Assembly: GCA_002319075.1 (NCBI GenBank)
Contig: NVQB01000001.1
Coordinates: forward strand, 1,488,001 to 1,552,000
Direction: 5' to 3'
Source: Sphingobacteriaceae bacterium
GTDB lineage: Bacteria > Bacteroidota > Bacteroidia > B-17B0 > Aurantibacillaceae
Length of the DNA stretch: 64,000 nt
Under the pieces are notes generated by a model. That model saw only the letters and a list, made by a program, of their open reading frames with translations. It was not told the origin of the DNA and made no database searches. Below, one piece after another: positions 3,420 to 62,991 of the stretch (position 1 is its first letter; every line of letters starts with the position of its first letter). The position numbers and the translations under genes are program-made.

Positions 3420-4373
3420 TTAAAGTTCCTTCATCAAAACTTTGTAAAGTTCAATCATGCCCTCTACATCTTTTTTATGGACTTTTTCATCCGGGGTGTG
3501 AACGTTCTCTTCAGCTGCACCAATAAAGCACCAGTCCCAGGCATACTCCGCCATTTGTAATTCTTTGGCATCGCTGCCGCCACTGCCTTCGATTTCTAAT
3601 TGATAGGCACAGTTATTTTCATCAGCAATTTTAATAATCCTATTTATAAAACTCCTTCTTGGAATTAAACTATCGCGCATGCTAATTACCGGTCCTTTTG
3701 CATAATGCACCCCATCTGAGATCCAGGAAATATCGGAAATCAATCCTTGGTCGATTTTATAATTTTCCTGCAGGTATTTTTGCAGATAAGACACACTTCC
3801 ACCTCCATGCTCTTCCCAGCTGCTAAATACAATTGCACCATTCTTTAATGTTTCTGCAACTTTTAGTGCATTATACATGCCCAAATGATTATCCATATAA
3901 CAACATTGCAAATACTCTTTATCTTCTCTCCAGTCTGGTTTAAATACAAGCTCCGTGCCTCTTTCAAAGTCACGCTTACCTTTGTATTCCAATCTTGAAT
4001 GTCCTGCTTTTTTATCCTCCACAATGGCTAATTCCACTTCTTGCGTGCCCTGGCTGTCGGTGCCCACCAATTTAAAACCATTTTGTAACATGGGGCCTCC
4101 AATTTTTACCAGTTGTTTTCCATAACGCACGGTAAAGCCAATACTGTCCATGTGCGCAAAAATAGCGGTGCGTGGTTTTCCGAAAATTAAAATGATATTA
4201 TCCTGGAACCCTTTTCCATGAATTATCTTTGGTTTGTGCTTCCAGTTTTTCCAATTCTCTTTAATATAGCGCATCAGAAAGTTTTTCATGCCTGCTTCGT
4301 TTCCGCTGGGGGCATGAACTTCAGACATTTCTTTCAATAAGCTGTACTCGTTTTTAATAGTTTCTTTTTTCAT
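3420..4373 (-). CDS. M42-family metallo-aminopeptidase
   Basis: A 317-residue cytoplasmic zinc/cobalt-type peptidase of the M42 (glutamyl aminopeptidase/TET) family. Expected metal ligands are visible in order: H74 and D76 in AHMDSIGF, D161 in MDNHLGM, E187/E188 in SWEEHGGG, D214 in ISDISW and H292 in ENVHTPDE. The usual DDR around the bridging Asp is DNH here, so the second Asp and the Arg are replaced. An APSGNEAGM segment near the N-terminus is also typical. The start ATG (MKKETIK) is clear. It follows the IMPACT gene at 28 bp and is likely co-transcribed. Substrate peptides unknown. Confidence 0.85.
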   Translation of the reverse strand: MKKETIKNEYSLLKEMSEVHAPSGNEAGMKNFLMRYIKENWKNWKHKPKIIHGKGFQDNIILIFGKPRTAIFAHMDSIGFTVRYGKQLVKIGGPMLQNGFKLVGTDSQGTQEVELAIVEDKKAGHSRLEYKGKRDFERGTELVFKPDWREDKEYLQCCYMDNHLGMYNALKVAETLKNGAIVFSSWEEHGGGSVSYLQKYLQENYKIDQGLISDISWISDGVHYAKGPVISMRDSLIPRRSFINRIIKIADENNCAYQLEIEGSGGSDAKELQMAEYAWDWCFIGAAEENVHTPDEKVHKKDVEGMIELYKVLMKEL

Positions 4374-5950: not shown

Positions 5951-5984
5951 AAAAAAGGGACGAAATATATTTCGTCCCTTTTTT
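5951..5984. terminator. Bidirectional intrinsic terminator
   Basis: Perfect 16-bp inverted repeat AAAAAAGGGACGAAAT / ATTTCGTCCCTTTTTT around a 2-nt centre, with A and T tracts on both sides. It sits between two convergent genes: the secreted protein (plus) and glutamine synthetase III (minus). Confidence 0.9.
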
Positions 5985-20550: not shown

Positions 20551-20585
20551 AAAAAATCCCCGCTAAAATTTAGCGGGGATTTTTT
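20551..20585. terminator. Bidirectional intrinsic terminator
   Basis: A 17-bp near-perfect stem AAAAAATCCCCGCTAAA / TTTAGCGGGGATTTTTT with a single-base centre, between the convergent SCO gene (plus) and the thioredoxin-fold operon (minus). Confidence 0.92.
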
Positions 20586-27801: not shown

Positions 27802-27837
27802 AAAAAACCCTTTTAAGAAATCTTAAAAGGGTTTTTT
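27802..27837 (-). terminator. Intrinsic terminator after gcvH
   Basis: A 17-bp stem AAAAAACCCTTTTAAGA / TCTTAAAAGGGTTTTTT with a 2-nt centre, 17 nt past the gcvH stop on the minus strand. The vanZ start lies just beyond it. Confidence 0.9.
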
Positions 27838-59196: not shown

Positions 59197-61116
59197 TTAA
59201 TTTGTTTGGTTTTGTTGTTTTTTAACTTCTTCTTCGTTCTTCAACTCTTCCTTTTTCAAACGTTTTTCCTCCCGTTTAATTTTCTCGTCAGTTCTTTGTT
59301 GTTCTTTTTTAAGCTTTGCTTCTTCGCTTTTCCTTGTGTCGTCGTTTATTTCGACATTTTTTTCGGGAGTAGTTATTCTGATACCATTGTCGTCGATCTT
59401 AATGTGCGTTTCTTCTCCGTTTACTTCTATGCCATCATCGTCGATTACTACTTTGTCTTTTCTATGTCTTTCCTCATCATCCTCGTCTGCATCTGATTTA
59501 TCAAGCCCTTCACAGTCGAGGCAGGTCAAACCTCTTTCTGTCATTTTCCAGCGACGCGAAATCATTTTTCCATCCCAGGTGTTACTTGTATTTCCAACAT
59601 CATTCAAGAGATATTTTGTACTCTTATCAAAATAAATCACCTTACCTTTTGGCAGCTTAATTTTTATTTCGACTTCAGGAGCTCTAAATCTTGATCCTTC
59701 CATTACTGTAAAGATCTGATCAAAAGTTAAAGTATTTTTATCCTGGCTATAGGTATAGTCTATTCCCCTTGCATTTTCGTTAGCATCTTTCTTACTGCTG
59801 CCGCGGGCTACACGTGTTATGGTCATTTCAATACTATCTGAATTACCTTCTATCACATCCAGATCGGCATATCCAATAATACTCAGGTGTTTATCATTTT
59901 CACCAAAAAGATAGCCGCCGTTATTTTTACTTAAATCATTTTCTATGTCGTCATAATTTTCAAAGCCCAGGGATTTCAGATTTCCAGAGCCCTGATTCAT
60001 TTTAATAATGAGCGTATCCCCCGTTCCATGCAGTACATAAGTTTCCTTTAAGTGAGAGCTTTCGTTAAATTGTTTTACGGTGTTAACAGCCACATAAAAT
60101 CCGAGAATAATCCCCATGGTCCAAATGATTCCCAGTCCCAAATTCAACCAGCGATTGCTGTAACGAATTTTGAACAGAAGTTTCACGCCTGCGTAAACCA
60201 GCATGATTACTGGAATTCCGAACACAATTATAAACGCAATAACTCCTAATGCATAATCAGAAGACGATTCGAAAATAACTCTTCTCCAGTGTGTGAGATC
60301 GTCGTTAGAATCCATTACAGAAATCCCAAAAATACTTGTGGCCCAGGCAAAAAGTAATACCCCACCAATAAGTATAAAGAACACTCCGATCAAACGACCG
60401 ATGATATTAAACACTGAATTTAGTACGTGAGCAGAACTGTTGCGGGCGTAGGTATAATTGTCGCGAACAACTCCTCGCATTTCATCGTACTGGCGTTTAC
60501 CGTTTTTTGCAAAGCGATTTTTTACATCTTCTGCTTCTTCCTGAAACGATTTAAAAATGGTATTGATGTTGGCTGATTCGCCGCGCATAGCAAGACGGTC
60601 GGCCGTGGTTTTTGCCTCCGGAATCACAATCCACATAATGATGTAAACCCATAAACTTAATCCACCAAAAAATACAAGTAAGAACATGGCTAAACGCACC
60701 CACACAGTATCAATGTCAAAATAAGCAGCAAGACCGCTACATACGCCGCCAATGGCTTTCTCGTCAGGATTACGAAATAATCTGCGGCGAATTTTTTCCT
60801 GGCGGAATTCTGTTTGTTCTTCCTTTTGAGAGGACTCTTCTTTGGCAGGTTGTTCACCACCAAACTCCTCAGGTTTTCCCATTACGTTCATTACATGCTC
60901 TACATCGGCCATTAAAATAACCTGTTTTGAAACATTGATCTTTGCCTGTAATAGCTCTGCGATGCGGGCTTCAATATCACTCATGATCTCGTTACCACCA
61001 TCGGTTTTACTAAAATACCCTTTAATGGTAGAAAGATATTTACTTAAGCTATCGTAGGCATCTTCTTCGATGTGAAAAATAATACCGCTTATATTTATTG
61101 TGACTGTTTTATTCAT
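59197..61116 (-). CDS. PspC domain membrane protein
   Basis: 639 residues. An N-terminal domain (NKTVTINISGIIFHIEEDAYDSL ... EDVEHVMNVMGKPEEFGG region, 1-95) is followed by a PspC domain (about 106-178: FRNPDEKAIGGVCSGLAAYFDIDTVWVRLAMF), then several TM helices, an extracytoplasmic beta-rich part similar to DUF2154-type adhesin domains, and a highly charged coiled-coil C-terminus (KKEQQRTDEKIKREEKRLKKEE). PspC proteins sense envelope stress in enterobacteria; in Bacteroidota they are commonly paired with a PadR gene, as here (18 nt downstream of it). Probably envelope stress related; this is inference. Confidence 0.9.
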   Translation of the reverse strand: MNKTVTINISGIIFHIEEDAYDSLSKYLSTIKGYFSKTDGGNEIMSDIEARIAELLQAKINVSKQVILMADVEHVMNVMGKPEEFGGEQPAKEESSQKEEQTEFRQEKIRRRLFRNPDEKAIGGVCSGLAAYFDIDTVWVRLAMFLLVFFGGLSLWVYIIMWIVIPEAKTTADRLAMRGESANINTIFKSFQEEAEDVKNRFAKNGKRQYDEMRGVVRDNYTYARNSSAHVLNSVFNIIGRLIGVFFILIGGVLLFAWATSIFGISVMDSNDDLTHWRRVIFESSSDYALGVIAFIIVFGIPVIMLVYAGVKLLFKIRYSNRWLNLGLGIIWTMGIILGFYVAVNTVKQFNESSHLKETYVLHGTGDTLIIKMNQGSGNLKSLGFENYDDIENDLSKNNGGYLFGENDKHLSIIGYADLDVIEGNSDSIEMTITRVARGSSKKDANENARGIDYTYSQDKNTLTFDQIFTVMEGSRFRAPEVEIKIKLPKGKVIYFDKSTKYLLNDVGNTSNTWDGKMISRRWKMTERGLTCLDCEGLDKSDADEDDEERHRKDKVVIDDDGIEVNGEETHIKIDDNGIRITTPEKNVEINDDTRKSEEAKLKKEQQRTDEKIKREEKRLKKEELKNEEEVKKQQNQTN

Positions 61117-61580: not shown

Positions 61581-61946
61581 TTAAAGTGTTTTGAAGTTTA
61601 GCGTTACACTGTGTACAACGTTTTGTTTTACTTTAGGAAGTTGCAGATGCGAAAACTGTTTTTCAATCTCCTGTTTTAACCCTTTATCAGAAGTTTTTGC
61701 GAGTACAAAATTTATTTTTCCGGTAGAATCCGTCGTAAAAAGAACTTCCACTTTATTTGATTTCGCGGTTTTGTTTTCGTAGTGCGGCATTAAAATCTGG
61801 GGAAATTTAAAATAATCGCGGATCGTTTTTTCAGTTTCAGAAGTTACTACACTTGCCGAAGGAGTTGTATTTGCTACAGCTAGTAGAGTGGTAAAGATCA
61901 GGCCTGTAATTAAGATGATCTTGGTAAAAGTAATTTGAGTGTTCAT
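61581..61946 (-). CDS. Small secreted protein, TonB-C-like
   Basis: 121 residues: a signal peptide (MNTQITFTKIILITGLIFTTLLAVA), then a domain with VEVLFTTDSTGKINFVLAKTSDKGLKQEIEKQFSHLQLP, which resembles the TonB C-terminal-like domain (beta-hairpin and helix). The name is by fold impression; function unknown. First gene of the PadR-PspC operon (no terminator in the 77-nt gap). Confidence 0.7.
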   Translation of the reverse strand: MNTQITFTKIILITGLIFTTLLAVANTTPSASVVTSETEKTIRDYFKFPQILMPHYENKTAKSNKVEVLFTTDSTGKINFVLAKTSDKGLKQEIEKQFSHLQLPKVKQNVVHSVTLNFKTL

Positions 61947-62054
61947 TTTGTTTTAATTTTTGTCCCGATTTTTATTTAAAACAGGATGGGTTAATTTTAA
62001 TTTTAGTTTAAATAGACATTTTCAGTACTTTTTTGCAATAGCTATTATGCGATA

Positions 62055-62062
62055 CAAATATA
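62055..62062 (-). promoter_or_regulatory. Promoter (-7 box) of the operon 61946-59197
   Basis: CAAATATA (plus) is TATATTTG on the minus strand (TAnnTTTG). CAA at 62084-62086 gives a -33 TTG with 21-nt spacing. The leader to the ATG at 61946 is about 100 nt. Confidence 0.6.
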
Positions 62063-62074
62063 CAATATAAAAAC

Positions 62075-62097
62075 AGTACTATGCAACGCATAGTACT
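62075..62097. promoter_or_regulatory. Perfect palindromic operator candidate, probable PadR binding site
   Basis: Arms AGTACTATGC and GCATAGTACT, 10 bp each, are separated by AAC and match without a mismatch. The -33 element of the minus-strand promoter (62084-62086) lies at its centre, so a bound protein would block RNA polymerase. A PadR gene lies in the same operon, making autorepression the simplest reading. It also lies 74 nt upstream of the TerC -7 box on the plus strand. Confidence 0.7.
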
Positions 62098-62170
62098 AAA
62101 TTATTTTTAAATATATTATAAGTAATTGATTATCAATAGTATTATTTTTTATCAGGTCCATTTAATTTAA

Positions 62171-62178
62171 TATCTTTG
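62171..62178 (+). promoter_or_regulatory. -7 promoter box for the TerC gene
   Basis: TATCTTTG matches TAnnTTTG and ends 18 nt before the ATG at 62197; an in-frame TTG at 62176 lies in the box. Confidence 0.55.
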
Positions 62179-62196: not shown

Positions 62197-62991
62197 ATGC
62201 ACAGTTGGTCTGCGGATTTTGCCGCATTATTTTCATTAGAAGGGATTATTGGTTTAATAACCTTATCGATTTTAGAAATCATTCTTGGGATAGATAATAT
62301 CATTTTTATCTCGATTGCTGTGAATAAATTACCAGCTGCACAACAAAAAAAAGCCCGTACGATCGGACTTTTACTAGCGTTATTGGTACGCTGCGTTTTA
62401 CTTTGTTTTATTGGATGGATTGCCGGTTTAAAAGAAGCGCTTTTTCACATAGGCGCATATGGGGTTAGTGGGAAGAGTCTGATCTTAATAGGTGGCGGGG
62501 TATTTTTGCTTGTTAAGACCTGGGGAGAAATTATGGAAAAAATCAATACCGATGAGGATGAAGTTGATTTTACCACCAAGGGAAAAACAACTTTTAATTC
62601 CATCATCATGCAAATTGTGATCATCGACTTTGTTTTTAGTTTCGATAGCATCCTTGCTGCTGTTGGTGTGAGCGGTATTGTATTAATAATGATCGGAGCC
62701 GTTGTAGTGAGTATGATCTTAATGATTTTATTCAGTGGCGCTGTCTCAGCTTTCATCAATAAAAATCCGGGTATTAAAATGATCGCTTTGGTATTTTTGT
62801 TGGTAATAGGTGGAATTTTACTGGCAGAAGGACTTATAGACTGTTATAATTTCAGTCTTCCGGAACAGGATCACCTGGAGTTGAATAAAAACTATGCTTA
62901 TATAGCTTTAGCTTTTGCCTTAATAATTGAGTTCTTCAATATGAAGGAAAGAAAAGTGAAAAGGAAAAAGGATCTGGAGTTGGAGGAATAG
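62197..62991 (+). CDS. TerC family membrane protein
   Basis: About 264 residues from the ATG at 62197 (MHSWSADFAALFSLEG). Seven hydrophobic helices; LEIILGIDNIIFISIAVNKLP and IDFVFSFDSILAAVGVSG are the two TerC/Alx acidic signature segments (GIDN and FSFDS). TerC/Alx proteins are linked to tellurite resistance and manganese homeostasis, and may aid metal loading of exported proteins. Upstream, divergent, is the PadR operon. Terminal tail KERKVKRKKDLELEE. Confidence 0.93.
   Translation: MHSWSADFAALFSLEGIIGLITLSILEIILGIDNIIFISIAVNKLPAAQQKKARTIGLLLALLVRCVLLCFIGWIAGLKEALFHIGAYGVSGKSLILIGGGVFLLVKTWGEIMEKINTDEDEVDFTTKGKTTFNSIIMQIVIIDFVFSFDSILAAVGVSGIVLIMIGAVVVSMILMILFSGAVSAFINKNPGIKMIALVFLLVIGGILLAEGLIDCYNFSLPEQDHLELNKNYAYIALAFALIIEFFNMKERKVKRKKDLELEE

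Follow-up and report, generated by a model that had tools for sequence, protein, structure and literature searches.

What silences an operon that carries its own repressor gene, and at which DNA site does this happen? We addressed this question for a PadR/PspC operon read from the minus strand of the window, the whole 64,000-nucleotide stretch of Sphingobacteriaceae DNA analyzed here, with terC lying divergent to it (Table 1). Judging from sequence comparisons, we estimate a probability of roughly 0.86 that a 23-bp palindrome in the operon promoter, O1, is the operator where the operon's own PadR shuts off its operon.

Table 1 Features of the PadR/PspC operon and its upstream region (positions in the window; a point marks features without strand).
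Feature	Position	Strand	Basis or remark
PspC-family membrane protein, 639 residues; N-terminal HAAS-like domain, PspC, LiaI-LiaF-TM, Toast-rack	59197..61116	-	domain matches
padR, PadR-type winged-helix repressor, 122 residues	61135..61503	-	PF03551, 1.3e-18; PDB 5h20, 3.1e-37
First operon gene, 121-residue protein, signal-like N-terminus, without confident family	61581..61946	-	homologues at 51/80 loci
O2, candidate downstream half-site AGTACT, in register, 51 bp from right half of O1	62024..62029	.	GTAC column count
-7 box TATATTTG of operon promoter (consensus TAnnTTTG)	62055..62062	-	seen on the letters; spacing in relatives
O1, palindromic candidate PadR operator, AGTACTATGC-N3-GCATAGTACT	62075..62097	.	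TACT-N11-AGTA class
-33 element TTG, centre of O1	62084..62086	-	TTG in 46/59 distinct relatives
Upstream element TTGATAATCAA; longer form TTGATAATCAATTACTTA (62119-62136)	62126..62136	-	39 bp before O1; 29 bp in other loci
terC, divergent	ATG near 62198	+	

A palindrome centred on the -33 element

The full sequence of O1 is AGTACTATGCAACGCATAGTACT. Its 10-bp arms, AGTACTATGC and GCATAGTACT, flank AAC without a mismatch, and TACT-N11-AGTA occupies positions 62077-62095. On the minus strand, the TTG at 62086-62084 (CAA on the other strand) is followed by 21 bp and then by TATATTTG at 62062-62055. Both the perfect palindrome and the placement of a -33 element in its centre, upstream of a -7 box, had been put forward in the original prediction, and both were confirmed on the letters. 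The promoter agrees with the consensus for the primary sigma factor of Bacteroidota, -33 TTTG / -7 TAnnTTTG, in which the -33 element is often weak (PMC6847099). The predicted transcription start lies at ~62048, ~100 bp ahead of the first gene.

We then compared this arrangement among relatives. A search with PadR yielded 80 loci, from which 59 promoters less than 80% alike were kept as a distinct set. The 21-bp spacing between the centre of O1 and the -7 box was found in 55 of these 59. On the operon strand the centre of the site reads TTG in 46/59 and the mirror image CAA in 0/59. Such a strand bias is not needed by a regulator that binds a palindrome but is expected of a -33 element, and thus fits a -33 element placed inside the operator.

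O1 is the sole copy in the 5.65-Mb genome (20-base pattern, up to 3 mismatches), and when the window was shuffled 100 times the same 20 fixed bases gave 0 matches at this tolerance. A genome-wide O1 regulon in this organism was rejected, as a second site is absent at this threshold; a looser 14-base pattern returned 249 matches versus 303 in the control, which is noise. The window contains nine perfect inverted repeats including O1 (arms of at least 10, loops of at most 8), compared to 0-2 in first-order random windows. Nearly all of the other eight end in A runs and T runs, and we take them as likely terminator hairpins. Since the window holds these eight other long inverted repeats, the weight of proof falls on conservation rather than on the length of the palindrome. 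Inverted repeats with A-run/T-run ends, among them those at 5951-5984, 20551-20585 and 27802-27837, are likely bidirectional terminators.

Conservation with PadR operons

A site of the O1 type (up to 4 mismatches) was found at 73 of the 80 PadR loci as well as in the window, and the loci without one are mostly contig ends that leave little upstream DNA. In the 59 distinct promoters most of the information resides in the operator and -7 columns and the flanks carry little. TACT and AGTA are both exact in 24/59, with changes such as CAAGGTACT elsewhere. The site also stays with the operon, lying 60-137 bp from operons in which PadR comes first and about 400-1000 bp away when a leading gene intervenes.

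We further assessed a held-out sample of 296 Bacteroidota genomes, among which a PadR model identified 70 carriers, every one of them from the class to which the window belongs. The 1.5 kb upstream of the PadR operons of 69 carriers was scored with a matrix trained on close relatives, using a cut-off of 16 bits; a few genomes might be common to the training and held-out collections. Sites of at least 16 bits were present in 62/69 operons versus 0/69 for both reversed and shuffled controls, whose best score was 7.3. Most of the weak or lost sites belong to a single family (f15), where the site is degenerate or absent at five loci that keep PadR. The palindrome is thus kept upstream of orthologous operons, which was the check proposed with the original prediction. 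That nearly all of the related bacteria tested carry it at the same position argues that O1 is a real regulatory site. This conservation bears directly on the notion that the palindrome is an RNA hairpin, a terminator or a chance repeat, as the eight mostly A-run/T-run-ended, terminator-like inverted repeats of the window might suggest. However, O1 has no T run, both predicted start sites lie downstream of it, and conservation over the class extends beyond its pairing to the base sequence itself and to the promoter register. We therefore rule out this explanation, whose likelihood we consider negligible.

The association with PadR was also found when the pattern alone was used. Scans allowing up to 2 mismatches found sites in 34/73 genomes of the same class, versus 5/73 for the reversed pattern. 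All 34 site-bearing genomes belong to the 70 carriers of this PadR, and the three same-class genomes that lack PadR have no site. Outside the class the scan scored in 7/223 genomes, fewer than the reversed pattern gave there. At 19 of 29 places fetched from the scan, PadR lay alongside.

Could another winged-helix regulator bind the palindrome and control the PadR operon from outside, with PadR acting elsewhere? In many genomes a similar palindrome, TACTTTG-N5-CAAAGTA, precedes a different operon, one that encodes a membrane protein and a DNA-binding-like protein of 98 residues; TACT half-sites are therefore not the mark of a single regulator. Against this, the site occurs along with this PadR and travels with it from family to family, the same half-sites are recognized by a related PadR (PMC5050560), and O1 is present as a single copy in this genome. 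We consider control from outside unlikely, and favor autorepression by the operon's own PadR.

A second question is whether PadR on O1 mainly controls the divergent terC, or both directions jointly. A divergent terC lies at most 400 bp from the site in 40 of the 61 loci with enough flank, but in the other 21 assessable loci the site is kept without such a neighbor. Moreover, O1 keeps a fixed register with the promoter of the PadR operon, and 74 bp separate the palindrome from the predicted -7 box of terC, TATCTTTG (62171-62178). The loci without terC and this distance rule out terC control as the main role, leaving the effect on TerC suggested in the original prediction unsupported; we regard either version as very improbable.

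Additional elements in the promoter region

Two further elements surround O1. At the column 51 bp downstream, GTAC occurs in 17/59 loci, and no other column outside O1 has it in more than 2; in the window this is the half-site O2. Upstream, YTGAWWWTCAR was found in 41/59 loci and in none with the reversed pattern. Its distance to the operator is always 27-29 or 38-40 bp, positions one helical turn apart, and among the held-out families, which are more distant, only four occurrences lay near such a distance. It is possible that this element is an activator or UP-type site. An extended form, TTGATWATCAR-N3-RTTA, precedes the PadR promoter in the window (62119-62136, minus strand) and at several loci of relatives; relatives carry it at other places as well, and it outnumbers its reversed control many times over.

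The operon and its membrane protein

PadR of the window is of the small (s2) type, with a PadR winged-helix domain and a C-terminal helix bearing an invariant Trp. The PspC-family protein, which is of a membrane-stress type, matches PF04024, PF22571 and PF22744 (PspC, LiaI-LiaF-TM and Toast-rack). Its own N-terminus has no Pfam match to HAAS, and an AlphaFold model of this N-terminus (pLDDT 82) gave no significant match against PDB. The HAAS assignment consequently rests on the orthologues, as HAAS (PF22564) matches 39/46 PspC N-termini (first 100 residues; best 6.6e-9). With HAAS in these orthologues, the operon belongs to the HAAS-PadR-PspC arrangement described in PMC11237479. For the leading 121-residue protein, family searches gave sub-threshold matches only; its product weakly resembles the C-terminal domain of AgmX/PglI. 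Control had been predicted to extend to this gene and to PspC, and both indeed lie downstream of the promoter on the same strand and should share it.

Similar sites elsewhere in relatives

PadR-type sites were also seen upstream of other genes in relatives. At five loci they precede proteins of about 750-825 residues with signal-like N-termini, which are probably outer-membrane receptors, in genomes whose PadR gene is elsewhere. Some genomes carry additional sites ahead of genes for small secreted-like proteins. Five other loci have, near position 4000, a PadR-type palindrome directly adjoining an ECF-like promoter, GTAACA...CGTCGTCT (GTAACA...CGTC), followed by open reading frames of about 28-41 residues, several of them in tandem and sharing MRTLNxNQL...WNxKRRxR. 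As matching sites occur at other genes in several genomes, O1 may not be the sole PadR target there. We treat these extra sites in other genomes as leads, separate from the window. The sister palindrome, AGTACTTTG-N5-CAAAGTA-like, was observed at 16 loci and also outside the class; its operons often encode a roughly 200-residue membrane-like protein together with the 98-residue DNA-binding-like one.

A model for autorepression

Conservation, the leading of pattern-only scans to PadR-PspC operons, and the operators published for PadR relatives (PMC5050560) together support the predicted autorepression through the candidate site O1. In our model, a PadR dimer would sit on TACT-N11-AGTA across the -33 element. 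An operator in this position would sterically block the primary sigma factor, and repression would follow, keeping the 121-residue protein, PadR and PspC low. O2, about five helical turns downstream and just past the expected start, would probably aid a second dimer on the same face. Perturbation of the membrane may change the state of the HAAS/PspC/Toast-rack protein, which would then pull PadR off the DNA or alter it, a step taken from the proposal in PMC11237479. Release of PadR would induce the operon, and the PadR so made would close the loop.

More broadly, but only tentatively, HAAS-PadR-PspC of Bacteroidia might serve as a compact replacement for a two-component envelope-stress system. 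Its promoter would be composite, with the -33 element inside the operator, a second contact for PadR five turns downstream and an upstream activator site at two distances one helical turn apart, and in some lineages the same PadR code might also control outer-membrane receptors and tandem micro-ORFs at ECF-type promoters. A role for PadR-HAAS-PspC modules as an alternative to two-component systems has been suggested before. The HAAS-PadR pairing is likewise published, and the defined cis site adds to it; the half-site O2 and the upstream element at two distances are new details. In the literature searched we found no description of an operator for PadR-HAAS-PspC modules of Bacteroidota, and a search on the motif letters gave only unrelated matches among the matches listed. 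Being sharp, conserved and fixed in register with the promoter, the cis site offers a ready reporter for the inducing stress and allows targets to be listed by genome search.

Comparison with known PadR systems

The pairing of HAAS-PadR with PspC has been described, and passage of a membrane signal from HAAS to PadR proposed, in PMC11237479. As in that dyad, a stand-alone PadR gene lies here beside a membrane protein with HAAS, PspC, LiaI-LiaF-TM and Toast-rack, whereas in the window a small extra gene leads the operon; an operator sequence was not found in the accessible part of that paper. Similarly, the Listeria LltR operon (lmo0599-0601) combines PadR with HAAS (DUF1700) and Toast-rack (DUF4097) genes, and LltR represses itself about 150-fold (PMC6624303). 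Unlike in the window, these functions are on separate proteins in a Gram-positive bacterium, and the accessible part of that source gave no operator sequence.

Among solved PadR structures, PDB 5h20 is nearest in sequence, and its recognition-helix region is nearly identical. We take this structure to be, probably, that of BF2549 of Bacteroides fragilis. For BF2549, PMC6457526 cites Lee 2017.

O1 does not match the canonical ATGT-N8-ACAT of PadR/LmrR/LadR, from which it differs in half-sites and spacing, though ATGT-N8-ACAT is not defining for all small PadR proteins. Instead, the operon's own promoter contains an inverted repeat of the kind known from cdPadR1 of Clostridium difficile, which binds two TACT-N11/12-AGTA sites within its own promoter, one of them over -35/-10 (PMC5050560). 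Both are small s2-type PadR proteins with such a repeat over promoter elements and a second copy nearby, and with autoregulation, here predicted. In contrast to cdPadR1, the system described here belongs to a different phylum with a different sigma consensus, has longer arms (AGTACTATG), and pairs one full site, with the -33 TTG inside the palindrome, with a half-site 51 bp away. The type of repressor and operator is an ordinary one, known from other bacteria, and its assignment here is well supported.
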